Below, one piece after another: positions 2,565 through 26,015 of a stretch of 26,015 nt of DNA; the stretch's first letter is position 1, and the number at the start of each line of letters is the position of its first letter. This stretch comes from a virus. The notes beneath the pieces were generated by a model. It saw only the letters and a program-made list of their open reading frames with translations. It did not search any database and had not been told where the DNA came from. The position numbers and the translations under genes are program-made. The stretch covers positions 1-26,015 of IMG/VR virus record IMGVR_UViG_3300010883_000381. One strand, written 5' to 3'.

Positions 2565-5500
2565 TCAGCCCTCGTCCGTTGGGAGAATCCCATCCCAGGG
2601 ACCACCCCAGAGATCATGTCCTTCAAGGATGCCCACAGAACCATCCCCGGGTCCTCTGCCCCCTAGCATCCGCATCGCCGCCAACCCCCGTAGATTTGCT
2701 GGCGATCCAGTGGGTCCGCCCTGCTCCAGGTTGAGTGCCCTGCCCGCCACATTGTCCTGTAGCACCGCCTTGAACAGCAGAGGGGTCTTGCCCTCTGCGG
2801 AAAGGAAGAGATTGGCTGCGGGCCCCAGGTTGACCTGGACCTGTGACCGCACGATCTTCATACTCGGGATCATACCGTTCCGAGTATCAGGCCCAACCAC
2901 TACGCACCCTGCCCCATCTGAAAAAGCATCCTGCTTCGAGGGGCCGTCGCCGTCTGGCCGTCCGATGTTCATCCAGGTCGTCTGTCCAGGCACCTTGACG
3001 TAGAGCTGGATCCCCCGCGAGTTCCCCGGATCCCATACGAAATCTTCAAGGGTCAGCCCCACGAGCTGGATCCGAACGAAGGGTTGCCCCTCGCCGGCGG
3101 GGATGTGGAACAAGCGGATGTACTCCCTGTCCCCGGAAAGCGTCGAGTAGTCGGGCTGGTTCCAGACGAGTTGCCCCGAAGCTGGAAGGTATCCGGTGTT
3201 GTAGTCCTCCTGCGGGTAGACGAGGACGCCGGTACACAGCGATGGAGAGTAGACTCCCTCGAGAATGGACGGGTTGCGATCCGGCCACCCAGCTACCTGC
3301 GCCTGAGGGGTGGCATCGCCACCAACTCCATCAAGGAACATCGCCGAGTTGTTGGATTGTGCATACCAGTGGGCAGCATCGCCGAAGGGCTCGCGCACCT
3401 TCACATAAGAGGAGCAGTCAAGCACCCCGTACGGTAGACCAGGCCCCTTGAGTGTGTCTGTAGTCTCAGCATCAAGACCCCACAGGTCGAGGGGGGCTGA
3501 CCGGTAGGATTCGTCGAGGAATCTCTCCTCCGAGTCCTTCACATCGCTCTGTGTGGAGGCGTTCTGGTTGTTCCCATAAGCCTCCTCGAAAGCACCACCG
3601 GAGCCGGATCCGAACCAGAGTAGACTGCCGAGGAAGCCGCCACTTGAGAGGGTGACCTCCCATGACTCGAAGTAGTCGATGTAGGGGATCAGGGGAGACT
3701 GGTGCCACAGGGGCTTGCGGACAAAGGCCCGGACGATGGCATCGCCCGAGAACTTCGGAAGCTGGTCTCCCGTGAGGTGCATCGCATGTGTGCTGGCCGT
3801 GGCCGAATCCCATGTGATCCTCGCCAGGTTGTCTGGGATGGGCACGGGAGCGTTCGCCTCATTCCTAATGAGGTCGGCGGCGGAGAAGCCCAACCTTTCC
3901 CTACGCGCATCACCAAGGGTGGATAGCCCCATCCCAATGACAGCGGTGAAAAGGGCGGTGTCCGGGATGATTCCGCTATCAGGCGTAAAGGCAGAGAATG
4001 ACAGGAACACGGGATCCATGTTCCCCATGAGTGAATCAGGTGTTGCAACGCCGTCCAAACCGAGCGCCGCCATCGCCAAATGGGACGGCCCAATCTCTGG
4101 GCTGGCCCAGAACGACTCATGCGTCCGGTAGGAGTGCTCGAACACGCCCGCATATCCGGGATCCACGGTGTTGGCGCCCCTCCACGAGATGTCGAGATCC
4201 TCGATCTGCCAGGACATCGCACCCCCAAGACCAAGGGGCCTGAAGTATGTAACACCGCTGCAGGCATGGAGGCCTGCGGGGTCATTCTGGAAATCGCAGG
4301 TGCCCGACATGCTGTGGGCCTGCACGCTCCAGGTAGCAAGGCCGGAGCTGACGGCGAGGGCGTCCCCCATATTAGGGTGGGTGTGACAGAAGTAATGGAG
4401 GGTCCCGCCCGTCTCGAAATATGCCGCAGCATCGACCGTGAGCTCCAACACGCGCTCGGAGAATCCGGAGAATCCAGCGAGCCAAACGGTCTGATCCACT
4501 TCAACCCCATCGGCGAAGTACTTGACCCCCGTCCCATAGATGGAGCCGCTGTTGTGAACGCCGTCGCCCGTCGTGGAAAGGTGGAAGGGATGGGCGTCCA
4601 CTGAATCGGAGCTGAGGTCGAACCTGTAGGTGCCGCCTGGGAGTAAGTCGCCAGGTGTGGGCCATGTGAGGACGAAGGTGCCGTCCACCGTCACGATAAT
4701 GTTGGCGATGGGGGAGCAACTGAACACGCCGCCGCACTTGGGATCCTCGAAGACCCCTGACCGGATCACATGGTATGAGTGCCGGGGGAGGATCCCACCA
4801 GTGAGATCCACGGAAACGATGTTCGCCACGGATTCTGGGTCGGTCCAGTCCATGAGATTCATGCTGTAGACCCTGTCGTCGGACGGCCACACACCGTCCC
4901 GGACGGCCTCCTCGAAGTATTGCTCCTTCTTGAAGTGGACGAGGACATAGGATCCGCAGTCCCTCGGGTCGCCTTCAGGGAGAACATCATTAGGGAGGTG
5001 GAACTGGTGCCTGTAACGACCGATCTGGTGGGTCCACCAATCCTTGCCGCCAGGAGGGTAGTTGCCCGCTGAATCAAGATCCGCAGACGGAGATTGACTG
5101 ATGGTGGGCTTACCAAAGTATCGTTCACGCGTTGAGATTGGAGCCCACTTGAGATCCTTGTAGTTCTCGAGGACAGGAAGTCTGTACCCAAAGAAGTTCT
5201 GATCGTGGCCGCCCGCTCGAGCGGCGGTGGTGCCACCCAGAATGGGGATGCCTTCAGCGATGACCGGGACCCCCGCATTGGCATCCGATCCGAGACGGAC
5301 CTGACCACCGTGCGGCCAGCCCTGGGCGCCGTCCGCATCCATGTCGAAGAACGGAGATGGGAGGTTTCCGTCAGCGACAATGACGCTGACGCCCGTATGA
5401 ATCTCCTCAAGGTTGTACTGTCCAGTAGCCCTGCCTGGATAGGAGAAGGGGTCATATGAGTGCGGTGCAAACTCCCCGCCTGGGGTGCCGAGCCAGAAGA

Positions 5501-6335
5501 TGCCGCCGGGATCGCCGTCACAGTGGTCGAGGATGCCCTCGCCGAGGTTGATGGCACACACCACCCTGTCGAGGGCGGCCACGCCTGTGAAGCCCGTTGA
5601 GGGGGCACCACGGAGCAACGCCATCGTGCCCCTGTCGGCGGGATAGACCACGCCAGAAACCACCACAGGTCTGCCGAGGCTCGGAGACTCTCCGACCTGC
5701 TTCGATGGGATGATCATGTGGGTTGCGACCAGATCGTGCGCTGCATTAGCGAAGTCCGACCTTGTGAAGGCCCCCGCATGTGCTTCTCCGCGCCCACCAC
5801 CCCTGTAGTCTGCATTGAACACGTTGAACACAGGGTCGGAGGGATCCTCACCTGGCGTGGCGAAGTCCTGCGTCGGGTCGGGAGCTGTGTGGTAGTAGGG
5901 GTAGAGCTCGGATCCCTTCTCGGTGATCCCCAACCCCCATCCCTCTGGAAGCGCCGCGTCGCGGTGGAAATACGAAGAATCGTCCAGCTTCAGGATGCCC
6001 CAGTCGGGTCGGCAGTCGAGAGCTGTGTATGAAAGCAACGCCCCAACGGTCGGGGGTCTCGGCGGCACGAGGGCCGACAGCTCGTCAAGGACGCCCTCCA
6101 CGTGCGCTGCATCATAGATGTCAGGCACCGAGTCGATGGATACAGCATGTGCGGGGTGTGCGTTGTGCTCATCCTTGATGTGGAGTTCGAGGGCATAGAG
6201 GCCACCCCCACCTCCGTCCGAGTACGCGGGCTCATGACCAGACGCTGCCGGGATGATGGCGTTCGCCTCGATGCTGTCGGGGCCAGCGAGGCCCCTACCC
6301 ACAGTGATCAATGCTGGATTGGTTTTTCTAGGCAT
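2565..6335 (-). CDS. 1256-residue tail/baseplate-associated protein with embedded cupredoxin-like domain
   Basis: The ATG at 6335 is one base after the stop of the preceding gene (TGACATG), with a G-rich Shine-Dalgarno (GGGGGA) about six bases upstream. Residues 76-88 (AAHVEGVLDELSA) resemble the VExxLdEL phrases common in phage fibre proteins. Residues about 541-660 form a cupredoxin-like unit: a GGTYRFDLS strand, then HPFHLS at 582-587, ending in FCHTHPNMG at 649-657. Cys650, His653 and Met656 plus His582 would make a type 1 copper site. Cysteines also sit at 534, 540, 680 and 692 around this unit. The remainder is Gly/Asp/Pro-rich and unrecognised, with no membrane segment or signal peptide. 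Size, position and style indicate a virion structural protein exposed on the tail. The coding call is near certain; the cupredoxin fold is a motif-based inference, and metal occupancy is unknown. Confidence 0.88.
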   Translation of the reverse strand: MPRKTNPALITVGRGLAGPDSIEANAIIPAASGHEPAYSDGGGGGLYALELHIKDEHNAHPAHAVSIDSVPDIYDAAHVEGVLDELSALVPPRPPTVGALLSYTALDCRPDWGILKLDDSSYFHRDAALPEGWGLGITEKGSELYPYYHTAPDPTQDFATPGEDPSDPVFNVFNADYRGGGRGEAHAGAFTRSDFANAAHDLVATHMIIPSKQVGESPSLGRPVVVSGVVYPADRGTMALLRGAPSTGFTGVAALDRVVCAINLGEGILDHCDGDPGGIFWLGTPGGEFAPHSYDPFSYPGRATGQYNLEEIHTGVSVIVADGNLPSPFFDMDADGAQGWPHGGQVRLGSDANAGVPVIAEGIPILGGTTAARAGGHDQNFFGYRLPVLENYKDLKWAPISTRERYFGKPTISQSPSADLDSAGNYPPGGKDWWTHQIGRYRHQFHLPNDVLPEGDPRDCGSYVLVHFKKEQYFEEAVRDGVWPSDDRVYSMNLMDWTDPESVANIVSVDLTGGILPRHSYHVIRSGVFEDPKCGGVFSCSPIANIIVTVDGTFVLTWPTPGDLLPGGTYRFDLSSDSVDAHPFHLSTTGDGVHNSGSIYGTGVKYFADGVEVDQTVWLAGFSGFSERVLELTVDAAAYFETGGTLHYFCHTHPNMGDALAVSSGLATWSVQAHSMSGTCDFQNDPAGLHACSGVTYFRPLGLGGAMSWQIEDLDISWRGANTVDPGYAGVFEHSYRTHESFWASPEIGPSHLAMAALGLDGVATPDSLMGNMDPVFLSFSAFTPDSGIIPDTALFTAVIGMGLSTLGDARRERLGFSAADLIRNEANAPVPIPDNLARITWDSATASTHAMHLTGDQLPKFSGDAIVRAFVRKPLWHQSPLIPYIDYFESWEVTLSSGGFLGSLLWFGSGSGGAFEEAYGNNQNASTQSDVKDSEERFLDESYRSAPLDLWGLDAETTDTLKGPGLPYGVLDCSSYVKVREPFGDAAHWYAQSNNSAMFLDGVGGDATPQAQVAGWPDRNPSILEGVYSPSLCTGVLVYPQEDYNTGYLPASGQLVWNQPDYSTLSGDREYIRLFHIPAGEGQPFVRIQLVGLTLEDFVWDPGNSRGIQLYVKVPGQTTWMNIGRPDGDGPSKQDAFSDGAGCVVVGPDTRNGMIPSMKIVRSQVQVNLGPAANLFLSAEGKTPLLFKAVLQDNVAGRALNLEQGGPTGSPANLRGLAAMRMLGGRGPGDGSVGILEGHDLWGGPWDGILPTDEG
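4356..4715 (-). other. Cupredoxin-like domain (residues about 541-660)
   Basis: This segment lies inside the 1256-residue protein. It has the order of a blue-copper domain: a strand with His (His582 in HPFHLS), a Gly/Ser loop with TTGDGVHNSGS, a strand TLHYF, then C-x-x-H-P-x-M with Cys650, His653 and Met656. The spacing C-x2-H-x2-M matches that in plastocyanin-like proteins with an HPxM ending. Similar HP...STTxDGTHN...YYCxxHxxMG segments are, from memory, found in marine phage virion proteins. All four expected ligands are present, so copper binding is plausible, though the domain could serve only as a beta-sandwich scaffold. Confidence 0.72.
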
Positions 6336-6336
6336 G

Positions 6337-9300
6337 TCAGTCCCCCACCGTCATCAGGCAGCCCTTGGTTCTGTAGACGGCGGCGCATGTTGTGTTCTCT
6401 CCGTCCGTGAAGCGAACCGTATTGTCGTCGTCGAGCTCGGCGAACCGGGACAGGACAACGAGTAGTACCTCGCCTCGTCTAAACAGACGGGAATCTTGAA
6501 GCGACCTCCCCAGGATGGGGTACATGACCTTGTGCCGAACCACCCCGGAGCTGTTCTGTGCGAGAGCTGTGGGACGGTAGCCGTTCTCGTTGACGAACGG
6601 GTAGAGGACGCGGAACTCGTTGTCCTTCCTCGGATACTTCGCCCAGTCGTTGGGCTCCAGTGAGCGACCGCCGAGTTTCAGCGTTCCCGTTCCGTCGGCG
6701 GGCATGAACGGATGCAGGGCCATGAGACCTGTGTTGGCATCGAAGTCATCCACCGACACCATGGCGCTGGCGCAGAAGTACCACTCACCGGGGAAGGCGT
6801 CGGGGTCCAAGGGAGAGTCCAGGACTGGAATCTGGTCGAGGGGCGCCGTGTATGGGAAGCCCAGCTCGAGGGAGCCCATCCCCACCTGGCCGCTCCAGAT
6901 CTCCTCCGAGGTTGCGAGGATTTCCACCTCGAGCTCGGCGGGCACAGGGCCCGCACCGCTTGTGTCGTGGACGTCGGACTCCTTGGTCCCGCAGGTCTGT
7001 GGGGCGTTGGAACGGAAATAGATGCTCACCTGGTAGCCGCCACCGTTCTGCCCGTGGTTCGGGACGGGGTCCTGTGCATAGTAGGTGATGTTGCACAATG
7101 TTTGGCCAGTACCGCTGAGCTCCGTGGGGCCGCCTTGGGTTTCGATATGCATGAGCCGGGAGCTTGATCCGTAATCGGAGCCTGGAAGCCCGCCCACATC
7201 GAAGTGGCGTACGGTGCGGGGAGTACCGTCCACACCGTCCGTGATTCCGATCTGCTTCGAGCTCGATCCGTACACCCTGCGAGGGAAACGGACAGAACCC
7301 CTGTCCCTACTGATTCGGGTTTCCACCGTCGCCGTGCCTATGGGCTGCTCTGAGGCACCTCCATTGGAGACTTGCTCAACGAGGACCTCCCGGAATCCTT
7401 CCCGGAATACAGGAGCGGTGGGATGCTCCATCTCAGGTGACCTCTGCGAGGAGTCATTCTCCACAAGAGCCCCGTAGGGGTACACGACTGTGGATGTCGG
7501 TTCGAGGACCTCATCGGGCGTGTCGGTGATGCCAGATCCGAGGGGGTATGTGATCTCCAACTCGATGAGGATGCGCCTTTGAGACCCCACATCCCCAGAT
7601 GCAGCGTCCCCCACCATGTTGAATGCGTTGCCCGGTTGGCCCCCATTGACCTGTGAGTGATTGGCATCAAGCTCGAGGGTCAGATGATTTGATCCGAGTC
7701 CCACAACCCTTGAAAACTGGATGCTCTGATCGACTGCGGCGGCATAGTTGCCGTCGTCGTGTTCGGACACAAGGACATCAGTGATGGTCGTCCCCGGAGG
7801 CATGAGGTCCGACACCTTCATGATGTCGCCGTTCGCCCCAGCATATGTCTGGTCATAGGTGGGATCCCAGTCGGAGAGGGTGCTTCCGTTCAGGTTATCC
7901 AGGTCGATGTGGATGATGTCGCCCTCGTACCACCCAGCCCCAGCCTCCTTCTCGACATAGAGGCCATCCATGCCTCCTCCTCCGCCTACACCCGGGTGTA
8001 GGGCCCCTGGAAGGATCTCGAACACCACCCTCTCGCAGACGGGTTGGTCGGCGAAGCGTCGGGCCATATGGTCGAAGTTGCGGATCAGGACACCGTGCTT
8101 CGTGTCCCCTCCCGCTGGTCCGTGGCCGCCGTGGCCGCCGTCCCGCCCGATTTCGTTGCAGACGAGGAACCTGGTCCCGGCATCCCCAGATCCGTTCCCG
8201 AGGGTCTGCTTGCTAGCCCCGTCGATGGCCCAGGTGAAGAAGTTGCCGTCCATGAGCGACTGGATCTGGAACCGGAGCTCGGCGCCAACATCGGCCCCAG
8301 TAGGGAGGACATGCTTGCGGAGGTCCAAGACGTCTTTCTTCTCGACGACGTCGCAGAACCCTCCGTCAGGTCTGTCCGAATGACTGGCGGGGATGGGCCC
8401 CATGAGGGTGTTCGATGGGTATCCCGGGTGATCCGAAGGGGGTGCGCCGTTGGTGTTGTGGCCGGGATGGAACCCCTGTCCTGCTCCCGCAACACCCTCA
8501 CCGTTCACGTATGCGTTGTTGCGCCTGAACACAAAGCAGAGGGGGATGGCGTAGACGAAACCGTCCACCGTCCCCAGTGCGGCGGCTGATGCCGCACTCC
8601 CATCGCCCGCGATCCAGAGTCCTGAATCATGGGCTTCATATGCCGTGGCATCAGACTTGCCAGATCCACTCACTGTGGTCTTGTCAGCGGGAACGAACTG
8701 ATACTCGCCCACAGGAGTCGCCTTCGACCCCCTCGCCCACACCTGCGGGCAACTGAACCCGTCGGGTTGCGTCTTGTGGTTTACGCCTTCAGCAGTCCCC
8801 GTGTGCCTGATCCGATACTGGAGCTGGACCCGTTGGGCCGACTCCGTCCCCACTGACTGATCCATGAGGTCATCCGCAGCCGACACGGCGGTGGATGACA
8901 GCGTGTTCCCGTGTCTGTAGACATGACCCTGGTCGGGCTTATTGGGCCTGTCCTCGCCGCCCGAAAGGTTGGCGGGGGCAGGGGTCCCGTTGTTGAGTAC
9001 AAGGGCACCTCCGTCCGCCGTCACAAAGTCCATGAAGGCGGTGTTGCCCACAGCACCCGCAGCTTCGCACCTGAGGTGGACGTTGTCGGACGAGCTGTTT
9101 GCGTGAAATCCACCAAGGAGGTCGATGGCGGCCGCCAGGTTCAGGGCGGTCTCGTTGACTGTTTCCCCCAACCCGAACTCGGCAGGGTCGGCAGGGTTTG
9201 GCGATGTCCTCGCCGTAAGGATGGATGCGCCGCCCGCGTCAGTGACGGAAACTGCATCCCCATCCAAGAGGAGCGGGGTGCCCGAGTTGTCTGCGATGAC

Positions 9301-9813
9301 CTGGATGGTCCCTCGAGCGTGGGGGCTGGGGGCAACCATCGCCGTCCAGACTTCGAGGAATACGAAGTCTGACCTCTTCACATCGGGAGCGGTCCCCGTA
9401 CTAAAGGGAGCGGAATCCAGGACCACCTTGTTGGGTCCATGTGCCCACGGCATACGACCGTCGTTGGGAGTCCTCTCCGCATCATTGTTCGTGAACTCAA
9501 CCACCACGGGGCGTCCCGCCACCGATGCGACCATGCGGCGTACCCAGAAGGAGTCGGATGACCACCAGGCATCACCCGGTGTAGAGAACCCATAGTCCTG
9601 ATAGGGGTCGATCCGGGTCTGTCCCCGAAGGATGCCGGAAGGATGCCCCTGAGCGCGTAAAAGACGCTCCATTCGGGCGAGAAGATCCTGAGCATGGTTG
9701 AGCTCACTGTCGAGGATCGGCTTGCCGGACTGGTAGACGACCTGATCGAAGGATCTACCGCCAGATGGCAGATCCCTGGATACCGTCGTCCCATCGTATG
9801 TCTTCATCGCCAT
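6337..9813 (-). CDS. 1158-residue baseplate/tail-fibre-associated protein
   Basis: The ATG at 9813 follows a GAGGAG seven bases upstream and lies 11 bases after the previous stop; a second in-frame ATG is two codons later. Residues 25-39 (VVYQSGKPILDSELN) match the 'fQxGkPvLdsELN' phrase near the N-terminus of several phage tail proteins, comparable to DUF4815-type proteins. Residues about 180-288 form a module (GDAVSV...ETALNLAAAID...NLSGGED) typical of repeat units in tail sheath and fibre proteins; a related module is in the 2133-residue fibre. DVLDLRKH at 494-501 is another phrase I associate with phage fibre/wedge proteins. A His/Gly-rich loop lies near 560-572 and a Gly5 run near 610. 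The C-terminal half is beta-rich and unrecognised. Role inferred: baseplate rim or fibre-attachment protein. Confidence 0.87.
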   Translation of the reverse strand: MAMKTYDGTTVSRDLPSGGRSFDQVVYQSGKPILDSELNHAQDLLARMERLLRAQGHPSGILRGQTRIDPYQDYGFSTPGDAWWSSDSFWVRRMVASVAGRPVVVEFTNNDAERTPNDGRMPWAHGPNKVVLDSAPFSTGTAPDVKRSDFVFLEVWTAMVAPSPHARGTIQVIADNSGTPLLLDGDAVSVTDAGGASILTARTSPNPADPAEFGLGETVNETALNLAAAIDLLGGFHANSSSDNVHLRCEAAGAVGNTAFMDFVTADGGALVLNNGTPAPANLSGGEDRPNKPDQGHVYRHGNTLSSTAVSAADDLMDQSVGTESAQRVQLQYRIRHTGTAEGVNHKTQPDGFSCPQVWARGSKATPVGEYQFVPADKTTVSGSGKSDATAYEAHDSGLWIAGDGSAASAAALGTVDGFVYAIPLCFVFRRNNAYVNGEGVAGAGQGFHPGHNTNGAPPSDHPGYPSNTLMGPIPASHSDRPDGGFCDVVEKKDVLDLRKHVLPTGADVGAELRFQIQSLMDGNFFTWAIDGASKQTLGNGSGDAGTRFLVCNEIGRDGGHGGHGPAGGDTKHGVLIRNFDHMARRFADQPVCERVVFEILPGALHPGVGGGGGMDGLYVEKEAGAGWYEGDIIHIDLDNLNGSTLSDWDPTYDQTYAGANGDIMKVSDLMPPGTTITDVLVSEHDDGNYAAAVDQSIQFSRVVGLGSNHLTLELDANHSQVNGGQPGNAFNMVGDAASGDVGSQRRILIELEITYPLGSGITDTPDEVLEPTSTVVYPYGALVENDSSQRSPEMEHPTAPVFREGFREVLVEQVSNGGASEQPIGTATVETRISRDRGSVRFPRRVYGSSSKQIGITDGVDGTPRTVRHFDVGGLPGSDYGSSSRLMHIETQGGPTELSGTGQTLCNITYYAQDPVPNHGQNGGGYQVSIYFRSNAPQTCGTKESDVHDTSGAGPVPAELEVEILATSEEIWSGQVGMGSLELGFPYTAPLDQIPVLDSPLDPDAFPGEWYFCASAMVSVDDFDANTGLMALHPFMPADGTGTLKLGGRSLEPNDWAKYPRKDNEFRVLYPFVNENGYRPTALAQNSSGVVRHKVMYPILGRSLQDSRLFRRGEVLLVVLSRFAELDDDNTVRFTDGENTTCAAVYRTKGCLMTVGD
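7969..8002 (-). promoter_or_regulatory. Possible internal translation start preceded by an 18-base palindrome
   Basis: Inside the 1158-residue gene, the perfect palindrome CCTACACCCGGGTGTAGG (7985-8002) is followed on the minus strand by CGGAGGAGGAGGC and an in-frame ATG at 7971 (Met615). The Shine-Dalgarno match is as strong as at real starts here, for example that of the 213-residue gene. If used, it would give a 544-residue C-terminal product. The GGA run also simply encodes glycines, so this may be coincidence. Confidence 0.3.
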
Positions 9814-9824
9814 TCAGAAGCTCC

Positions 9825-10466
9825 TCAAAACGTTAGACGCCATGTGATGGTCAGAATCGCTGTCGAAGGCTTCGACATCACAGGAAACGTAAGGTAGTTG
9901 ATGAGGATGTCATGAGCTGACACATCGACAGTGCCATCGTATTCTGGGAATACAGCCTCCACGGGAGTCTTCACATTCGGGTTGTCCGACAGCGGTGACA
10001 CAAGCCCCATTTCGTTGAGGGGACCTACGGCCTCCGCCTCGCCAAAGGTTGTGGTGAAGTCGACCACATTAGTTGGGATCGCCGAGGCACCTCCGTCGGA
10101 ATCCCTGTAGACCACGGATGCGAACACCTTGCGCCCAATCTCTGCCTCCAAGGCCCTCTGTCTCGCATCTGGGGCGTCGGGATTCAAAAGAGATCCCCTC
10201 GCACCAGTGCCTACAGTGAGCATGGAAAGACCTCGTGCGGGACCCCCCCTCGACTGGAAAAGTAGAGATGCAAGCACCCCGCCATCCTTCGTGATGACGT
10301 TGTCCTTGGCCCAGTTCTCAAGTACCTCGCCCGTCTTGGAATCCCGCATCTCGACGATGAGGCTCCCTTTTGGGGGTCGGAGGGTGGTCTGCTGTGTAAG
10401 TGTTGCCCCCATTTTGATTGCCTGCCTCGCTTTGTCTATGTGCTCCAGATGTCGGCCTGACGTCAT
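9825..10466 (-). CDS. 213-residue virion structural protein (tail-fibre-like small protein)
   Basis: The ATG at 10466 has an excellent Shine-Dalgarno (GGAGGAGGAGG ending four bases before it). After a short charged N-terminus, residues about 30-60 read as a strand-rich segment ending in NVITKDGGVLASLLF, and LTVGTG follows near residue 80. The pattern 'xNxVtxxGxxxLaxLL ... lavGTG' recurs in small phage tail-fibre/collar-like proteins, where the rest is a compact beta domain; here it is followed by a beta-rich part ending ILTITWRLTF. No enzyme motif or membrane segment is visible. It sits between two giant fibre-like genes, 11 bases before the next start, so it probably belongs to the same baseplate/fibre complex as a small adaptor or decoration unit. 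The family-level call is moderate; the exact role is unknown. Confidence 0.85.
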   Translation of the reverse strand: MTSGRHLEHIDKARQAIKMGATLTQQTTLRPPKGSLIVEMRDSKTGEVLENWAKDNVITKDGGVLASLLFQSRGGPARGLSMLTVGTGARGSLLNPDAPDARQRALEAEIGRKVFASVVYRDSDGGASAIPTNVVDFTTTFGEAEAVGPLNEMGLVSPLSDNPNVKTPVEAVFPEYDGTVDVSAHDILINYLTFPVMSKPSTAILTITWRLTF

Positions 10467-10548: not shown

Positions 10549-13500
10549 TCATGGGAACAAGACCCCCTCTACACGGGACGGGAACGCCAACGGCGCCCCC
10601 CCTTGTAGAACAATACCGCCGACCTGCAACTCGCCTCCCCCAGAAAGGAGGGACTTCTCTTCCAATGCGGCCAGCCCTCCCCAGGGCCCAATCCTTGAAT
10701 AACCCTCGTCCCCTCCGAGGTACTCCATGATGAAGGTGCAGGAGGACTCCCCCGCGACGGGCCCCCCAATCTGATGAGAGGGCCTGATGTCCCACAACGT
10801 CCTTGTAGCCGCTGATCCGGGCGCTGGGGCGGTGGGTCTGGACGGGGCGGTGGGCCAGAGGAGGGCCCCGGCCGCAGGAGGTGCGCCGCCTCCCAATCTC
10901 CCCGTTTCGTGCGAGAACGCACCTCCCGCGGCATGGAGGAGGCCGCCCATGGCACCGCCGCGCTGGTCGTGGATGGGTCTCGGAAGAGGCGCATTGTTTT
11001 CAGAGATGGAACGACCAGAAATCTCGATCCCAGCGACACCACGACCCGGAGCGGGGCCGTCGTCAGGCGTAGATAGGAGGCCCAGCTCCCCTTCATCCTC
11101 TATCTCCATGAAGTTCATGGATGCATACAAGGCGTCGGGGTTGTTTGCGTGGGTCACATACCCAGAGGGGTCGTTTAGAACGAAGTCCTCGTCGCCGTTG
11201 AGTGTATCGCTCCACTCATTCAACCTCGACCCGTGGAAATGGGTGGTGACGGGTCCATCAACCTGATGGGCCGGGATGGGGGGTGTGCCCTCGTTCAGGT
11301 TCGTTACACCGTCCCGGACCGGTTGAGACGCCAGATAAGTGGTGGTGACCGGGGTGCCGGGGGAGAACTTCACCAGGATGGCGGCGTCCTCCTGATCCAA
11401 CTTTATTTCCTGCGTTTCGGAATCGAAGGACCAACTGGATGTGGGGAGGGAGGCACCGTCATACCAGACCGAGAAGACCCGGGCGGCATTCACATGCACA
11501 TCCCGGAAGTTGGCTGCGCCGCCCACGACCTGGAGGATTCTCTCCTCGACCGTGAGGTCGGATCCCAGCTCTCCACTCGTGATCACGTTGCAGCGGTTCA
11601 GGACGGCTCCCCGCAGCGGAAGGTGTCCCTCGTCTTCGGTGGTGTAGACCCTGTACCGGAACCGATCCCAGAGGGTTGTTGACACGGCGGACGAGGAAAG
11701 GCCTCCGAATGAAACCGTCGAGGATGCAGACCGACTAGGGGGAAGGTCGGACCACTCGAGGGACGCCCACGCCTTCGACGGATTGGTCCGCTGCGTGGCC
11801 CGGAGACTCTCGGAAGCTCCTTCGGGAACAGGTAAATCTGGCCTGTACAGAGAGGCCCCCCACTCTGGATCCACAAGGACCCTCAATGCTACGGAGTCGG
11901 TCCAGTCCATGAGGACCACATCCCCGCCCACCTTCGGAACCTCCCACGATTCAATCAAGGACGGATCTCCACCGTTCCAGATGCCGAAGGTGCGCTGAAT
12001 CTGCGGAGGAGGCGACACCCGAGCGGAGAGGGTGGAGATTTCGACCTCCAGACCGTTCCCATAGGTGGCGACGAACACGGAGTCCTGTGATCCTGAATCC
12101 AGGAAGCTCGACGGGGGTGCTGACCCCAGTGCCACTCCGTCCACCTTCAAGATGACGGCGGGATCTGCGAGGGTGTGATCCACCTCCAGGCGGTACAAGT
12201 GCTCAGAACCATCGTCCCAGGGGAAGAGGAACGATGCGACCTCGCCGCCCTGCGATGTAAGGAAGATCCGGTCGGGACCCTTCAGGAAGCAGAATCCTAT
12301 GGATTTGGAGGGGGTGGAGGCGTCCATCCCGACCGCCAGCCCGATGTGTCCGTCGGAGCCGGCATTGTGGCCGACCACGGCCATCCGAACCTCCAGGACC
12401 CTAGATACACCGTCCAAGTACGGGTGCTCCAACTTGAGGGAGCTCAGCAGCGATCCCTCGCCGGATGCCTTCAACCGGAGTTGCCTGCCCTCGGCGGTTG
12501 TGGAAACCAAACCTGACACCGCCCAACCCCTGGAGGACGGATCCGCATCGCCCGCCAGCGTGGAGGACGGCATGGACAAGAGGCGGAGGGATCCGTCGGG
12601 CCACTCGGCGAAGGAGAGGGTGGACACCCGCACTTCCCGCACAGGACCCGCCATGGAGAACCCCGCATCGCCCCATCCGGAGAACCCGTCGTCAACGGAG
12701 AAGTCAGCCTCGAAGTCTACGGAGGCCCCTTCGGGCACCAGGGTGTCGATCCTGTAGTAGCCTGAGGTGGATTCCCCGAGGGTGCCGGCTTCAGACCGCA
12801 TCCTCACCGTCCCGTCGCCCACAATGTCCGATGTCCCAAAGTGACCTGCACGCACCCATTCCCCGCGCTCCTCCGGGAGGTCGGACATCTCGGCCGTGAC
12901 CAGGTGTCCCGCAGAGTGGGAGGTAGACGAGTCGGGTGCATAGGTGTAGCGGAAGAAGTCCCACTCGGACTTGCAGCCCCCGAACGGATGACCCCAGAAG
13001 ACCTGCCCGGATGAATGGAGATCCAACACCCCGGGCGGAAGGGCCGAGGCATGGGGGATTGATCCGGAATGTTCCAGAGACCCCACCAGGTCTCCACTGT
13101 AAGTGACGGACATGCCCCCGTTTGAGCCGCCGGAGATGATCCATGTGAACGGCTGATTCCAGTTGAAGTCGAAGATGACATCTCCGGAACCAGCACCCCA
13201 GAGACCCGGATCCACGGGGAGGGCTCCGTCCAGGTTGAGGATGTGGGAGCCGTCCGAGAGTTCCTCCACAGACGAAACGTTGTAGACCCCCGCCTGTACC
13301 CCCTTGAGGATCTGGACTGCGCCGCCAGAGAAGAAGCTGGGGAGACTTCCTGCGGGGATCTCGATGGATGAGGCCCCGAACGAACAGGTTGCCCTCGGAC
13401 CCATGACCCATGAATCCGGATCGGTGTGGTCGGATCCTGACAAGATTGCCAGGTGCCGTAGGCCGTTCATGGACACGCAGGCCGTAGTCCTTACAGCAAG

Positions 13501-15738
13501 TACATCATGGAACCCGATCCCTGGTCCGATCCAGAAGCCGGCCTGGGGGGCATCCTGCTGGACGGAGACCCGAGCTGCAGCCGATACCGACCCGGGTGCC
13601 GTGCCGATATTGATCACGGAAGACAGCGCCGAGTCGGATGCCGACTGAAGGAGCCCCCACCCATCTGTTGCTGCAGAGGAGAGATCCACATCCCCCACCC
13701 AGCCCGTGGTCAGACCCCCTCCCTCCCAGGATCCATATCCTGGAGGGGTGTATTTGAACTTGTTTATAGGCCCCTGCAGGTGGGGGCTGGAGTTCAGGGT
13801 GAGGGAGGTGGCATCGTTCAGGCTGGCCGTGTACCCCCTCTCGAACCCGATGTATCTGTGGGATGTCAGAGTGGGCGCAGGGCGAGCTGGGCGGACGAGT
13901 GCCAAGGCCATCGGGAAGCGGGTGCCCTCATCGGGACCCCCTCCCTCCCAGGATCCGCTGGAGCTCGCCGTCCGGTGCCCCGAATGATCCCACTTGTTGA
14001 GCGTGGATCCGGGGGTGTTCAGACCGCCCATGGACATGCGGGGGGTTGCGATCCACGAGTAGTCGATCTGAACATTGATAGATCCCGCAGGCATACGGGG
14101 GACGGGGATCTCGGTGGTCACCCTTCCGAGGAAGGGGTTGACGGATCCGACAGCGACTTCAACCCCGTTCACCGAAACGGATACATCCTCCGGGGCGCCT
14201 GGTCGTCCGTCACCCCACCCTTTTGTGATGGGACCCCTGCTCGTCCACAGCGCGTCCAGGGCCATCCCAGCGGAGCCAGTGAACGGAGCTGGTGTCTCGT
14301 GAACAAAGTTCAGGTCCTCCCCGTAGATCGTCGAGGATGCGGTGAGGGACACCCCATGAATCGGAAGATTGCGGACGATGTATTCTGCCGCCAGGACGAG
14401 CTGGACGCCGGGGGACATGACGGGGGCCGCATCTGGGGAACCCACCCCGACCACGGGAACGCAGATGAGGGGGGCACCGTTCAGAAGGACGGCCCAGTGC
14501 CCCGAGGTTGCGTTGCGGAGAATCGTGAGATTGACAGGTCCGAGATCCCAGGCCGCGGCCGCCGATACGGACAAACTCCCACTCGAGAGTGTGATCGTCT
14601 TCGATACAACCCCACCCGAGAGCAACAGACTCGCCTGGACCGCTCCATCGCACACATGGATTGCCATCGCAGACGACTGGACGGATGGTACGAAGGAGGC
14701 CGATGAGGCATCGAACGACACATCAGCCTGAAACGTGCATCCAGCAACCATCCTGGATCCCGTGGAGTCGGGGAAATGCCACCCGTACGGGGACCCCGCC
14801 TCCTTCGTCAGAATCAGAGCTGCCGGTGAGGGGCCCGACGGATTGGGCCCAATGACGTATGCCTCCCCAGTCCCCAGCTCGACAGCGCCAGACGGAAGGC
14901 CGGCCAGGGGATCATACCTGAAGGCCTTGGCGGGTCCCGCCAAAAGGCCGTACTCCACGGAGGTCATGCCAAGGATGCCGAGCTTGACCCTGGAAGTATC
15001 GCTGCCGTCCAGTTGTGCGGAGGTCACCGAGGGTTCGATAGGGTAGGTTCCGGACACCTCATAGGAGGAGGGATCCTCAGCTCCGGATCCCAGGGGACGG
15101 GAGAAGCTCGCAACAATGTATGAACCGCCCGAATCCACCTCGACACTCTCGATGGTGTTCCCGACGCCCAGGGCGAGGAACCCCTCGGAGTTCATGCCGT
15201 CCACTGCTACGTTGCCCAAAGTGTCCTCAAGAGGATCCACCTTGACGGTGTAGCGGCCTCCAAGCGTCGTCCCCGAGTGCTGGACAAGAACCTGGATGAC
15301 ACCTTCTGGGGTGAGATCCGTCAGGTCATTCGCTGCCGTGGCGGACACCGCCTCCACCGTTGGTGTGCAGCCATACACTGGAGTGATCGCCCAGTGGTCG
15401 AGGGATCCGAACACAGAGTCGAGGGTTACGAGCTCGTTGAAGGTCACCAGGAGATGTTGGCCGTCGGTGGGGATGGCGGAGGTAATCCATGGACCCTCTC
15501 CGTCACCAGCACCGTATGGCGATGTACCGTATGGCAGGGCACCGTAGCCCTCGTAGGGCGGGAACGGGGGCCTCGGGTGCTGGCCGCTGCCGTAGGGACT
15601 GAATCCGTATAGGGCCCCTGCATCTGGGTCGGTCGTGCCACCATAACCCCGCCCCGCTGGGCTCGGTGGGCAGACAGGCACTCCGTTCTCGTCGAAGGGC
15701 CCGAATCCGAATGGAATGTTGGGATCGCTACTGGACAT
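10549..15738 (-). CDS. 1729-residue tail protein with Ig-like and LamG-like lectin modules
   Basis: The ATG at 15738 is 12 bases after the fibre stop; the stop TAG is itself the first part of the Shine-Dalgarno (TAGGAGGGG, six bases from the ATG). Residues 1-80 are rich in Pro, Gly and Tyr (PYGTSPYGAGDGEGPW near 68-83), a flexible head seen in some phage structural proteins. Residues about 82-187 and 188-272 look like two Big_5/SbsA-type Ig-like domains (lVTFNE..., then YTVKVDPLEDTLGN). Residues about 330-465, 990-1060 and 1095-1240 resemble laminin-G/concanavalin-type beta-sandwiches (for example LYRLEVDHTLADPAVILKVDG). GSWEGGG occurs twice, near 595 and 669. The end is an Ala/Pro/Gly-rich stretch, then a compact beta segment. 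Likely role: surface adhesin on the tail binding host glycans. Domain names are motif-based inference. Confidence 0.87.
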   Translation of the reverse strand: MSSSDPNIPFGFGPFDENGVPVCPPSPAGRGYGGTTDPDAGALYGFSPYGSGQHPRPPFPPYEGYGALPYGTSPYGAGDGEGPWITSAIPTDGQHLLVTFNELVTLDSVFGSLDHWAITPVYGCTPTVEAVSATAANDLTDLTPEGVIQVLVQHSGTTLGGRYTVKVDPLEDTLGNVAVDGMNSEGFLALGVGNTIESVEVDSGGSYIVASFSRPLGSGAEDPSSYEVSGTYPIEPSVTSAQLDGSDTSRVKLGILGMTSVEYGLLAGPAKAFRYDPLAGLPSGAVELGTGEAYVIGPNPSGPSPAALILTKEAGSPYGWHFPDSTGSRMVAGCTFQADVSFDASSASFVPSVQSSAMAIHVCDGAVQASLLLSGGVVSKTITLSSGSLSVSAAAAWDLGPVNLTILRNATSGHWAVLLNGAPLICVPVVGVGSPDAAPVMSPGVQLVLAAEYIVRNLPIHGVSLTASSTIYGEDLNFVHETPAPFTGSAGMALDALWTSRGPITKGWGDGRPGAPEDVSVSVNGVEVAVGSVNPFLGRVTTEIPVPRMPAGSINVQIDYSWIATPRMSMGGLNTPGSTLNKWDHSGHRTASSSGSWEGGGPDEGTRFPMALALVRPARPAPTLTSHRYIGFERGYTASLNDATSLTLNSSPHLQGPINKFKYTPPGYGSWEGGGLTTGWVGDVDLSSAATDGWGLLQSASDSALSSVINIGTAPGSVSAAARVSVQQDAPQAGFWIGPGIGFHDVLAVRTTACVSMNGLRHLAILSGSDHTDPDSWVMGPRATCSFGASSIEIPAGSLPSFFSGGAVQILKGVQAGVYNVSSVEELSDGSHILNLDGALPVDPGLWGAGSGDVIFDFNWNQPFTWIISGGSNGGMSVTYSGDLVGSLEHSGSIPHASALPPGVLDLHSSGQVFWGHPFGGCKSEWDFFRYTYAPDSSTSHSAGHLVTAEMSDLPEERGEWVRAGHFGTSDIVGDGTVRMRSEAGTLGESTSGYYRIDTLVPEGASVDFEADFSVDDGFSGWGDAGFSMAGPVREVRVSTLSFAEWPDGSLRLLSMPSSTLAGDADPSSRGWAVSGLVSTTAEGRQLRLKASGEGSLLSSLKLEHPYLDGVSRVLEVRMAVVGHNAGSDGHIGLAVGMDASTPSKSIGFCFLKGPDRIFLTSQGGEVASFLFPWDDGSEHLYRLEVDHTLADPAVILKVDGVALGSAPPSSFLDSGSQDSVFVATYGNGLEVEISTLSARVSPPPQIQRTFGIWNGGDPSLIESWEVPKVGGDVVLMDWTDSVALRVLVDPEWGASLYRPDLPVPEGASESLRATQRTNPSKAWASLEWSDLPPSRSASSTVSFGGLSSSAVSTTLWDRFRYRVYTTEDEGHLPLRGAVLNRCNVITSGELGSDLTVEERILQVVGGAANFRDVHVNAARVFSVWYDGASLPTSSWSFDSETQEIKLDQEDAAILVKFSPGTPVTTTYLASQPVRDGVTNLNEGTPPIPAHQVDGPVTTHFHGSRLNEWSDTLNGDEDFVLNDPSGYVTHANNPDALYASMNFMEIEDEGELGLLSTPDDGPAPGRGVAGIEISGRSISENNAPLPRPIHDQRGGAMGGLLHAAGGAFSHETGRLGGGAPPAAGALLWPTAPSRPTAPAPGSAATRTLWDIRPSHQIGGPVAGESSCTFIMEYLGGDEGYSRIGPWGGLAALEEKSLLSGGGELQVGGIVLQGGAPLAFPSRVEGVLFP
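13713..13956 (-). repeat. Pair of 22-base direct repeats encoding GSWEGGG
   Basis: Identical 22-base copies lie at 13713-13734 and 13935-13956, 222 bases apart and therefore in the same frame (74 codons). Each encodes GSWEGGG within the 1729-residue protein. The flanking sequence is not obviously repeated, so this may be a remnant of a duplicated module, or a repeated linker kept identical by recent copying. Confidence 0.6.
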
Positions 15739-22216: not shown

Positions 22217-23716
22217 TCAGATGAGAAACTGATTGGATACGTCCTCCTGCGCCTGCACGGGCTCCGCCATACCTAGTCTGTCCATCTCGACCTCGTATGC
22301 TTGGCCTTCGACGATGTGGGCCATCCTCGGAAATAGGCGGAGTCTGGATTTGGCAACGCGGATTCTAGATGCGGGTCCTGGGGCTGCACCGGGAGGTCCA
22401 CCCCCAGTGCCGAGAACGGCGGCGACCCTGTAGGATCCCTTATTGGGGCCCTCGTGAAAGGTGATGTACTCGTTGGCGGACACGGCAGAGAGGTCTACCG
22501 CGGGATCCATAATCTCCCCATCCACCACGACCGCCGACCCTGAGATTCCCGAGGGGGAGGTCGTGTATGTCCGGGCGACTGGATCCGAATCGGACACCAA
22601 CCCATAGACTCCCCGGACCGTGTACCTCCCGGCATTGAGACCGTCCTTGATCTCGAGGGGTGCGGCATAGGGGACCTCCAGAAAGTCCCGAAGGGGGTCC
22701 ACAAGAATCCCCCTATCCCCTTCAGAGGTGTTTCCGAGCCCGGTGATGGAACGGGCACCCCTCCAGTTTCTCCGGAGGTCTTGGTAGTAGTAGGGGGCCA
22801 TCTCCACGAGACTCTCGTCAGCGAAAACCCCCTCAAACATCTCCACAAACAGGTGCCTGTATGAGTAGACCGTGTGAGCTGGCTTCAGAGCGGCCAGGAT
22901 CAGATCCACGTTCCCCTTCAATGTGAAGGGGTCCGAGGGGAATCCCTGGCGGGCGGCATGTCCGTGCTCGACCTGTTGGCCGTCCCGGTACGGTTGGACG
23001 ACCCAGTCCTCAACAAGGTGGTAGTGCGGCGTCTCCGAACCGTCTTCCGAGTATGTGCCGTGAGTCCTTCCCGACCCGCTCCCATCGACACGTATGCGGT
23101 GCCAGTGACCCCCAACCTCCGAGGCGGCTGCATCCTTGAGAGCAACCATGTTCACCTCGAACTCATACTGGTTCGCCAGACCCCACGCCGAGGTCTCCTT
23201 GGAGAGATGCTCTGCCTTTTCAACGATGTCCACGCCGAGCTCGGAGAGCAGGCCAGCCCCCCTCTCGATGGAATCCTTCTTCGCCCCCTCCAGGAGGATC
23301 AGGATCATCCGCCGAAGGAAGTCCCGCAGATCCACATCACTGCCCACCTGCGGCGCCGGCTTTCCGTCCTGCCCTGCCCGAGGGAACACCGACCACCCAA
23401 ACATCTGATAGATGAAGTCGGGGCGCGTGAGACTCCAGGATGCATCGTCCGTAGAGAGCTCTGCGATGATCTGAAAGTCGGCGAGCTGGAGGGCAAGTGC
23501 CCTGAACAACCTGATGTAGAAGGGTCCTCCAGTCCGTGCAACATAGTTGGAGGGGAGGGACTCCCTGAAACGCTCCACGATGAGGTCGGCAATCTGATCC
23601 CGCCGATGGGATGCTGAATCGGAAAGGGGTGTCAGCGGGGCGGGGTTCTGTATTTCAGAGAGAAGCCTCTCGCCCTCTGGGAGGATGGTCCCATCGTCAT
23701 CGTAATACTTGCTCAT
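22217..23716 (-). CDS. 499-residue baseplate protein in the P2 gpI position, with triple HxH cluster
   Basis: I start the gene at ATG 23716, whose A is the last base of the J stop (TGATG overlap); AGGG lies six bases upstream. A TTG three bases earlier is too close to that site. Residues about 40-115 are helical (RDQIADLIVERF, SLPSNYVART, IYQMFGWSVF) and recall tail protein I of P2-like phages, which sits between J and the fibre gene exactly as here. At 499 residues it is far longer than typical gpI. Residues 204-253 hold three His-x-His pairs (204/206, 231/233, 251/253) plus His219 around the phrase RVDGSGSGRTHG, a likely metal-binding insert. The C-terminal third is beta-rich. Proposed role: baseplate wedge or tail-tip protein linking J to the fibre. 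Position supports this better than sequence does. Confidence 0.85.
   Translation of the reverse strand: MSKYYDDDGTILPEGERLLSEIQNPAPLTPLSDSASHRRDQIADLIVERFRESLPSNYVARTGGPFYIRLFRALALQLADFQIIAELSTDDASWSLTRPDFIYQMFGWSVFPRAGQDGKPAPQVGSDVDLRDFLRRMILILLEGAKKDSIERGAGLLSELGVDIVEKAEHLSKETSAWGLANQYEFEVNMVALKDAAASEVGGHWHRIRVDGSGSGRTHGTYSEDGSETPHYHLVEDWVVQPYRDGQQVEHGHAARQGFPSDPFTLKGNVDLILAALKPAHTVYSYRHLFVEMFEGVFADESLVEMAPYYYQDLRRNWRGARSITGLGNTSEGDRGILVDPLRDFLEVPYAAPLEIKDGLNAGRYTVRGVYGLVSDSDPVARTYTTSPSGISGSAVVVDGEIMDPAVDLSAVSANEYITFHEGPNKGSYRVAAVLGTGGGPPGAAPGPASRIRVAKSRLRLFPRMAHIVEGQAYEVEMDRLGMAEPVQAQEDVSNQFLI
22958..23107 (-). other. Triple His-x-His cluster, putative metal-binding insert
   Basis: This encodes residues 204-253 of the 499-residue protein: HWH (204-206), THG (His219), HYH (231-233) and HGH (251-253). 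The arrangement 'HxH...DxxGxGxT...HxH...V...HxH' recurs, from memory, in virion proteins of marine phages. Bound metal and geometry cannot be read from the sequence. Confidence 0.6.
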
Positions 23717-26015
23717 CAATAACCCTGCGCCGTGGATCCGAAGAACCTGGTCGATGAACGATCCTCGTCATAGGTGAAGATCCAGGTGCCGCCCTCGAAG
23801 AAGCTCGAGGGGCCGATTTCCAGATCCAAGGCACCCTGGTCCCCGTATGAGGTGTAGGTAACCGACCATGCCCTGCCCGATGCGGACTCTCCGACGGAGA
23901 GGGAAACCAGCACCCGATTGGCTGTGATCTCCTCCCGTTGCCTCTGGATCTCGGCATCAGTGGAGTAACCCTCCGAACGGATGGTATCGTCGTCACTCAA
24001 CCCGGGGATCACGAAGCCAGCAGATCCGATGATCCACGCCTGGCCCGGGGTGGATCCCAGAAGATGTGGAGATCCCTGAGAGAGCTCCACGGGAGCATCA
24101 TCCGACCACACACCCGTGTAGTTGCCGGACTCGACCCCTCCCCCGTCGGTGGTGGCATGTGCAAGGGGCGCCTTCAGGAGGTAGACCTGTGCCTGATTTG
24201 TGGACCATGCATCAATGGGGGTCTGGTCGGAGAACTGGTCGGAGGGGAGGATCTCCCGAACAACCTGAGACGCGTCAGAGAGGGCCATCTTGGTGAGGGG
24301 GAGGATGACATAGGACACGGACGAGGAAGCATCTATGGCCTGTACAACATCGGAATGTCGGATGGGGTCTCCGATTCCGAGCCCCCCGAACAGGTTCGTC
24401 AGCATGGTCCTGATGGAGGCATCCGCCTCCGAGGCTGATGCCCCCCGGTTCACCACCACGGTGCCTGTGATGTCCACAGCGACCGGAACGGCCTCCTTGG
24501 CCAAGAGATCCGCTGACAGATGCTTGTTCTCGTCGATGTCGGTCTGCGTCACGGACACGGCGAGGTTCGTGGTGTACTCCACGGTGAAGTTCTCGTCGTG
24601 CTGATACGAAATGAGGACGGTGTCCCCATCGGAGATCCTGCCCCCCTCGATGCGCTGGATGCCGAGAGCGGATGTCTGATCCCCTTCGATGATGGTGTAG
24701 TCGGAATCCACAGAAGGGTCATAGGGTCCCCTGTATTCGACTTCACCATCGCTTGATTTGACAGTGAGGGTCAGACCGATGGCCCCGAGGTTGGCGATAT
24801 ACTCCGCGTACTCGCCGATCATCACGTGGGACTCATCCGTCACGGTGATGAGATCCCCAGAGGGGACGACCAGGGTCGCGTCGACGTCGAGGGGCTCCGA
24901 CACCTGGATATAGGCCCCCGCTGAACTGGAGCGACCATATGTCAGGGGGGAACTCGGACGGACGAGCGTCCACACCTTCGCATCAAGTGTGCCAGCAACG
25001 GTGCCTTTGATTCCCGCCACGGAGGTCACGGGCTGCCGCTCGAGGGTGTACTGCGTACCCGTCCTGTACCTGTAGTCCCCGAGGACGACATCCCCGAAGT
25101 CGAGGTCAGGTTGATCCACCTTCGAGGAGAGGCGGATGGTGTTGTATCCAGTGATCTTGGCATCTGTCAGATCGAAGTATTCCCCCGTGCTGGCATTCCG
25201 GATGCCGAACTTCGGGGTCTCCTTGTTGAGAACCTCGATGATCGGGTTGGAGGGCGTCAGATCGTCGTCCAATGCTACGAACTCGAACATGTCCGGTGTG
25301 GAGGTGAGCTCAAACTGAATGTCCCTGGCAATCTCGAAGGTAAACGAGAACGTATCGGTGACCTGTGCCTCGGAGGCACCCCGCACCCACACATCAACCT
25401 TGCCTCCCCGGTGTACACCTCCCTCATCCATATCCCTCTGCATCAGGGGGTCGCCGGATGCCACCACCTTGATCTGATCCACACCAGGGACCATGGCGGC
25501 GCTCTGGAACACCCCTCTGTAGGTTCCGGTATCCACGGAAGCCAGTCGCCTGTGGGCGCGGATGGCGAGCTCCTGATTGCTCTCCGAATCCTTCCCGCCG
25601 AATGTGGCCTCATCGTTCCGGACATTGACCCCAGACATGTCAGACCTGCCGATCCTTCCAGATCCCTGATTCCCCCCCGCCCCTGGAGTGGCAGCTCGGA
25701 TCCCTACGGTTACGGAATACTCACCCTTCGAGGGGTTGTAGTAGCTGGCGGCGTTGTCTGCTGGAATGGAAACCGCAGACACGGTCCTGAACACGACGGA
25801 TGCGCCCATGACCCTGGTGCCGAGGGGGATGCTTATAGAAACAGTCGGGAGAGATTTCAGATAGAAGGTGACTTCCCCCCGGGCTGAAGCTCCACTGGAT
25901 CGAACCACTCCGAAGTTGCTTGCGAGCTTGTCGAACTGCACGTTGATGAGCTGCTGCACACCGGAAGCGGGATTCATGAACAGAGCCTCCGCAACACCCT
26001 GCTTGTAGGGAGAGG
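23716..26015 (-). CDS. Baseplate J-like protein (P2 gpJ / T4 gp6 family), probably 5'-truncated by the window
   Basis: Counting from ATG 25977 (753 residues), residues 127-135 (GGKDSESNQ), VPGV at 163-166 and GKVDVWV at 192-198 match the Baseplate_J core, which forms the wedge ring around the tail tube. The frame stays open upstream to the window edge, and the extra codons read SPYKQGVAEALF, merging smoothly into MNPASGVQQLINVQFDKLAS. That segment is the 'LDxLAxxxGvxR' region, which normally lies about 80-120 residues into the family. I therefore think the true start is outside the window. The alternative is ATG 25977, which has GGAGG eight bases upstream and would overlap an upstream frame ending in TGA (ATGA). 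The C-terminal two thirds are beta-rich extra domains. The next gene starts inside its stop codon, implying coupled translation. Confidence 0.9.
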   Translation of the reverse strand, partial: SPYKQGVAEALFMNPASGVQQLINVQFDKLASNFGVVRSSGASARGEVTFYLKSLPTVSISIPLGTRVMGASVVFRTVSAVSIPADNAASYYNPSKGEYSVTVGIRAATPGAGGNQGSGRIGRSDMSGVNVRNDEATFGGKDSESNQELAIRAHRRLASVDTGTYRGVFQSAAMVPGVDQIKVVASGDPLMQRDMDEGGVHRGGKVDVWVRGASEAQVTDTFSFTFEIARDIQFELTSTPDMFEFVALDDDLTPSNPIIEVLNKETPKFGIRNASTGEYFDLTDAKITGYNTIRLSSKVDQPDLDFGDVVLGDYRYRTGTQYTLERQPVTSVAGIKGTVAGTLDAKVWTLVRPSSPLTYGRSSSAGAYIQVSEPLDVDATLVVPSGDLITVTDESHVMIGEYAEYIANLGAIGLTLTVKSSDGEVEYRGPYDPSVDSDYTIIEGDQTSALGIQRIEGGRISDGDTVLISYQHDENFTVEYTTNLAVSVTQTDIDENKHLSADLLAKEAVPVAVDITGTVVVNRGASASEADASIRTMLTNLFGGLGIGDPIRHSDVVQAIDASSSVSYVILPLTKMALSDASQVVREILPSDQFSDQTPIDAWSTNQAQVYLLKAPLAHATTDGGGVESGNYTGVWSDDAPVELSQGSPHLLGSTPGQAWIIGSAGFVIPGLSDDDTIRSEGYSTDAEIQRQREEITANRVLVSLSVGESASGRAWSVTYTSYGDQGALDLEIGPSSFFEGGTWIFTYDEDRSSTRFFGSTAQGY

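Follow-up and report, generated by a model that had tools for sequence, protein, structure and literature searches.

Genomic context of the domain-carrying protein

The window analysed here is a 26,015-nt stretch of viral DNA (positions 1 to 26,015 of IMG/VR record IMGVR_UViG_3300010883_000381). An ORF on its minus strand (2565..6335) encodes a protein of 1256 residues, which we assigned to the tail/baseplate region on the basis of the ORF, an orthologue and the gene order. The gene of a baseplate J-like protein (23716..25977; PF04865, E 4.5e-16) lies on the same strand, as does that of a phrog_5417 protein (9825..10466) related to gp190 of phage G. An orthologue of the 1256-residue protein, with 32-37% identity, was found in LR745208, a 485-kb uncultured phage that keeps the window's order of the baseplate J gene, the phrog_5417 gene and the gene of the 1256-residue protein. 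Judging from this gene context, the window probably represents the baseplate/tail-fibre region of a huge-phage relative. Positions 15751-22152 of the minus strand encode a 2133-residue protein, for which the flagellin hook IN motif was the sole match, and a sub-threshold one. The neighbouring genes at 6337-9813 and 10549-15738 had no Pfam or PHROG match. ORFs antisense to the region (e.g. 4080-4604 on the plus strand) were taken as chance frames, the DNA being GC-rich.

A sequence-only reading of this DNA had proposed that a tail protein contains a cupredoxin-like domain in which all the ligands of a type 1 copper site are kept. The placement in a tail protein is supported by the gene context and by the relatives of the domain, whose annotations name tail fibres, baseplates or virion proteins. 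Location in a tail/baseplate module and relatedness to virion proteins together mark the 1256-residue protein as a probable virion protein.

The domain as an insertion in the tail protein

Besides LR745208, ten IMG/VR loci encode orthologues of the 1256-residue protein; a few of these loci are near-duplicates of each other or of LR745208. BLASTP indicated that the cupredoxin domain is absent from all these orthologues, and the domain is therefore an insertion in the window protein. Relative to the ten orthologous loci, the inserted stretch comprises residues of about 543-691 (4263..4709, minus strand). In the orthologue L346, for example, one aligned part ends at window residue 542 and the next begins at 692; L346 spans this gap with 18 residues, the window with 149. 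The insert was mapped by BLASTP segments; a MAFFT pairwise alignment with an orthologue scatters it.

The domain itself covers residues of about 545-671 (4323..4703, minus strand), as judged by an HMM, the AlphaFold model and fold matches in the PDB. A family HMM built from 67 viral relatives, with the window excluded, detected residues 569-677 (E 3.7e-27), and the same HMM gave no other convincing match across the window. The range first given for the domain, residues 541-660, proved too short because it cuts the last strand, which the AlphaFold model places at residues 657-662; the domain ends at about 665-671.

The 1256-residue protein has a single CxxHxxM motif. A loose pattern (His, 50-80 residues, CxxHxxM) arose in 10 of 2000 shuffled versions of this protein, so the motif by itself is only suggestive and the family evidence is much stronger. 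The window domain had no match in Pfam and did not reach the gathering cut-off of PF00127 (Copper-bind), the plastocyanin/azurin family, which was matched by 9 of 68 relatives (best E 2e-4). A bacterial repeat protein that scores above this cut-off (L338) has the pattern SHPF ... YYYQCSAHNGM. A PDB sequence search returned nothing better than a match to PcoC at chance level (E 1.2). The matches of a profile search were all weak; in one of them, to pseudoazurin (E 1.2), the Cys-His loop was aligned. When viral contigs were scanned with the single sequence of the window domain, no match was obtained; an alignment query was required. HHalign comparison with SAR86 pseudoazurin-like proteins gave a probability of 7 alone and 92 after intermediates were added. 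We set this result aside because one added intermediate was a phage protein and the first His was off by one column.

Predicted fold of the domain

Window residues 535-680 were modelled with AlphaFold using 67 relatives from viral contigs (mean pLDDT 82.6, pTM 0.78). The top Foldseek matches of this model in the PDB were multicopper oxidase, amicyanin and rusticyanin, with probabilities of 0.95-0.98 and modest to weak E-values (2e-3 to 1e-2, best 2.1e-3). In VIA-align 2, the best 50 matches listed were all of the cupredoxin fold, with Z scores of 5.9-7.5; according to the guidance for this tool, Z < 8 can reflect a common arrangement, and 7.5 alone is middling. Because the window model stayed below 8, a typical family member (L049) was modelled as well. 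Its model had a pLDDT of 89.1, its first 14 Foldseek rows were all cupredoxins (probability 0.99-1.00), and fold comparison gave 50 chains at Z >= 8, up to 9.3, with rusticyanin at Z 8.9 (3.4 A over 107 residues). Nitrite reductase, rusticyanin, laccase and amicyanin are among the PDB cupredoxins matched by the two models. Immunoglobulin-type chains also appeared in the Foldseek lists, ranked lower. Four BFVD entries (A0A481Z6J5, A0A481Z7Q7, A0A481YY19 and A0A481YWX9), small 'beta-sandwich proteins' of pithovirus- or marseillevirus-like viruses, also matched the fold model.

In the window model, Cys650 ends the penultimate strand (model strand 111-116) and Met656 immediately precedes the last strand, as in cupredoxins. 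The VIA alignment stops 7 residues beyond the axial Met in the window model and in rusticyanin alike, the axial ligand of the latter being Met148. The Greek-key barrel expected of a cupredoxin was thus found in the predicted models, which match solved structures, and on these models the window domain almost certainly has the cupredoxin fold.

The predicted barrel is common to the window domain and to rusticyanin, amicyanin, plastocyanin and the domains of nitrite reductase and laccase, and so is the order His ... Cys-His-Met, with Cys as the final residue of the penultimate strand and Met immediately ahead of the last one. Unlike these cupredoxins, the window domain is part of a phage tail protein, and its family has only weak Pfam matches. 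It also differs in an extra segment between strands, YFADGVEVDQTVWLAGF, and in the Pro that follows the first His.

Conservation of the predicted copper ligands

The four residues put forward as ligands were confirmed at their claimed positions. His582, the first predicted copper ligand (codon 4590..4592, minus strand, as for the other three), is 97% conserved over all copies; Cys650, the predicted thiolate ligand (4386..4388), which closes the penultimate strand, is 97% conserved; His653, predicted to bind copper from the loop (4377..4379), is 96% conserved; and Met656, the predicted axial ligand (4368..4370), is Met in 92%, with Gln in one subgroup of relatives. The loop of amicyanin is Cys-x2-His-x2-Met and that of plastocyanin Cys-x2-His-x4-Met. 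The ligands had been described as having the order and spacing of plastocyanin-like domains; their order does fit cupredoxins, but they are spaced as in amicyanin, Cys-x2-His-x2-Met.

Because the first scan for the family searched with a pattern that included Cys-x2-His-x2-Met, it could not show whether these positions are conserved. Queries that did not select for the ligands were informative. With a query lacking Cys, His653 and Met and retaining only the first His, 75 of 76 distinct copies had the first His together with CxxHxxM. With a ligand-free query, drawn solely from the middle of the window's subtype, all 52 of 52 copies had His and CxxHxx(M or Q), 43 with Met and 9 with Gln. Among 322 distinct copies from fetched loci, 298 were HCHM and 11 HCHQ, giving 309 with His-Cys-His-(Met/Gln), a share that leans high since part of the copies had been chosen for Cys-His-Met. 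A type 1 copper site calls for His, Cys, His and an axial Met (or Gln or Leu) in this order, with Cys-His-Met on the last loop; the window has this set, as do these 309 copies, with Met or Gln.

The exceptions with all four columns present were YATA, ISAA, QATH, DATM, FCYY, HNTM, DCHL and one HCHL. Copies departing from HCHM or HCHQ thus mostly alter two to four ligands together, as expected for a metal site that has become dispensable, and the natural copies without the site indicate that the scaffold can persist metal-free. A 3072-residue frame (L030:3-9218) contains several copies of the domain, some with the full ligand set and some without any ligand, so that forms with and without the metal site can be compared within one natural protein. 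The copies with Gln in place of the axial Met (L302, L288, L304, L318, L320 and others) appear to form a coherent subgroup with the motif YYWCHxHTGQG, and most of them have a common HPLM ... DGDHNGHGHY segment. Axial Gln is a ligand of stellacyanins.

The sequence, both predicted models and the conservation seen in searches that did not select for the ligands uphold the proposed cupredoxin-like domain and its full set of type 1 ligands; fold and ligand set are both well supported. Ligand conservation, the exchange of axial Met for Gln and the concerted losses make it likely that a metal is bound in the virion. If so, this metal is quite probably copper, the likeliest choice for the predicted ligand set; type 1 ligand sites take zinc too in vitro.

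An HPFHL motif had raised the idea of a multicopper oxidase. The idea was dropped: the trinuclear ligands are absent, the 1256-residue protein has one such domain, and the sequence around Cys650 is F-C-H and not H-C-H.

Distribution in phages and bacteria

A tblastn search of annotated phages yielded 42 records, mainly from cyanophages and also from pelagiphages, and a consensus query brought in Methylophilales phages. Where the annotations of these matches were informative, they read tail fibre, baseplate wedge or virion structural protein. Matches to Enterococcus phiFL phages look spurious, as they lack the Cys-His-Met motif. The PHROG family phrog_708 (baseplate wedge) was matched by 68 of 68 aligned members, and by the window domain at 4.9e-5; 17 PHROGs were matched in all, most of them virion families. 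Like phrog_708, the families phrog_677, phrog_30742 and phrog_693 (tail fibre) are known here mostly from cyanophage matches. These PHROGs consist of long proteins in which the match covers the cupredoxin module only, and their descriptions do not name the module. Scanning of viral contigs gave at least 489 confirmed copies among the 600 stretches listed. The domain family is abundant in marine viral contigs.

A similar pattern searched against 84,980 prokaryote genomes turned up 124 stretches and 82 relatives, mostly in genomes of marine plankton. Some of these copies are phage genes, for example one in a Pelagibacter bin that encodes a T7-type tail fibre. Others belong to surface lipoproteins of SAR86 and other gammaproteobacteria, which have a lipobox, a glycine run and cadherin or Big domains, with the cupredoxin domain near the C-terminus. 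In examples on bacterial contigs (L193, L182, L191, L239 and L195) the glycine run follows the lipobox; L195 has three tandem copies of the domain and a C-terminal membrane anchor.

Across the family, the domain is found in N-terminal, internal, C-terminal and tandem positions. It interrupts DUF7483 (PF24299) in two proteins (L017:3156-5993 and L019:4554-6008), with two match stretches of the family around it. In Cyanophage PSS2, gp080 (L002:4947-5285) consists of the domain alone (112 residues) and adjoins tail tape-measure genes; three of its four ligands are lost (D, A, T, M).

Proposed role on the virion

The best explanation overall is that the domain is a surface-display module whose type 1 copper-type site helps the tail engage the host; we put its probability at about 0.5. 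The cupredoxin domain would have been inserted, as a self-contained module, in a loop of the tail/baseplate protein, and it is probably exposed on the virion. The metal would staple the Cys-His-Met loop to the barrel and so produce a rigid knob on the tail, which could take part in contact with the host surface. Tail proteins that are otherwise unrelated, and surface lipoproteins of bacteria, would exchange the module. As the cytoplasm is copper-poor, copper loading would probably be delayed until lysis. The position in a tail protein, the modular exchange and the parallel with surface lipoproteins make a host-contact role plausible, at a little under even odds. We know of no receptor or partner for the domain.

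That the domain is a structural spacer or stabilising insert, in which any metal, zinc or copper, serves folding stability and not host contact, is rather unlikely on balance. The many positions and fusion partners of the domain would suit a spacer, as would natural copies such as PSS2 gp080, which retain the fold after losing ligands; beta-sandwich inserts are common on phage virions. However, Cys, the two His and Met are kept in 309 of 322 copies, with the axial residue exchanged only for Gln and rarely for Leu. This retention speaks more strongly against a spacer free of metal than against one that a metal stabilises, and the concerted loss of ligands argues against a purely structural filler.

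Redox activity of the site on the virion, by electron transfer or superoxide scavenging that would protect the particle or trigger a change at the host surface, is improbable. The site has the ligands found in type 1 centres that transfer electrons, and Met/Gln/Leu variation was seen at the axial position; in known blue copper proteins such variation tunes the reduction potential. Against this, none of the window genes was recognisable as that of a redox partner or enzyme, and a single domain with no trinuclear cluster motif is not an oxidase.

Least probable is that the copper-loaded domain acts as a lure, mimicking a copper ligand or surface cupredoxin taken up or bound by the host, in the manner of the iron-based Ferrojan horse idea for tail fibres: marine bacterial surface lipoproteins carry the same domain, and the HxH motifs that coordinate iron in gp37 of T4 and in the tails of marine phages are a published parallel (PMC11705849), but the lure has no known receptor, the hosts of phages with the domain have very different surfaces, and no window feature points to uptake. 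Neither sensing nor uptake mimicry, both raised by the sequence-only reading, received direct support.

The proposed display module in the context of marine phages

In the literature searched, which covered few subscription journals and preprints, we found no relevant paper on a cupredoxin or plastocyanin-like domain in phage tails. Cupredoxins as such are known; what appears new within the searchable literature is their wide use as a virion module, and a prior description is possible. The closest published idea is that of iron bound by HxH motifs of tail fibres, as described for T4 gp37 and marine phage tails together with the Ferrojan/Trojan horse hypothesis (PMC11705849). As with the HxH sites of T4 gp37, a metal, here a predicted one, would lie on the tail fibre and might have a role in host contact (PMC11705849). 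The T4 gp37 iron sites on the fibre are octahedral and His-only, whereas the window domain is a cupredoxin with Cys and Met ligands.

Returning to the surface-display module, its broadest form is possible but doubtful: a large, unnamed family of type 1 copper domains, present on the tails of marine phages from several phage families, would move between tail proteins and surface lipoproteins of bacteria, and virions would be carriers of copper on which their host contact depends. Metal sites on virions are rarely considered, and the domain is common yet labelled hypothetical or generic tail fibre. The isolated phages HTVC028P, P-SSM2, P-HM2 and Melnitz carry it and have cultured hosts, which makes the question testable now; the HTVC028P copy lies in gp32, at residues of about 620-705. 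If the module binds copper, the tails of many marine phages would carry type 1 copper sites; this would bear on attachment to Prochlorococcus, Synechococcus, Pelagibacter and methylotrophs, and on the colloidal copper of seawater.
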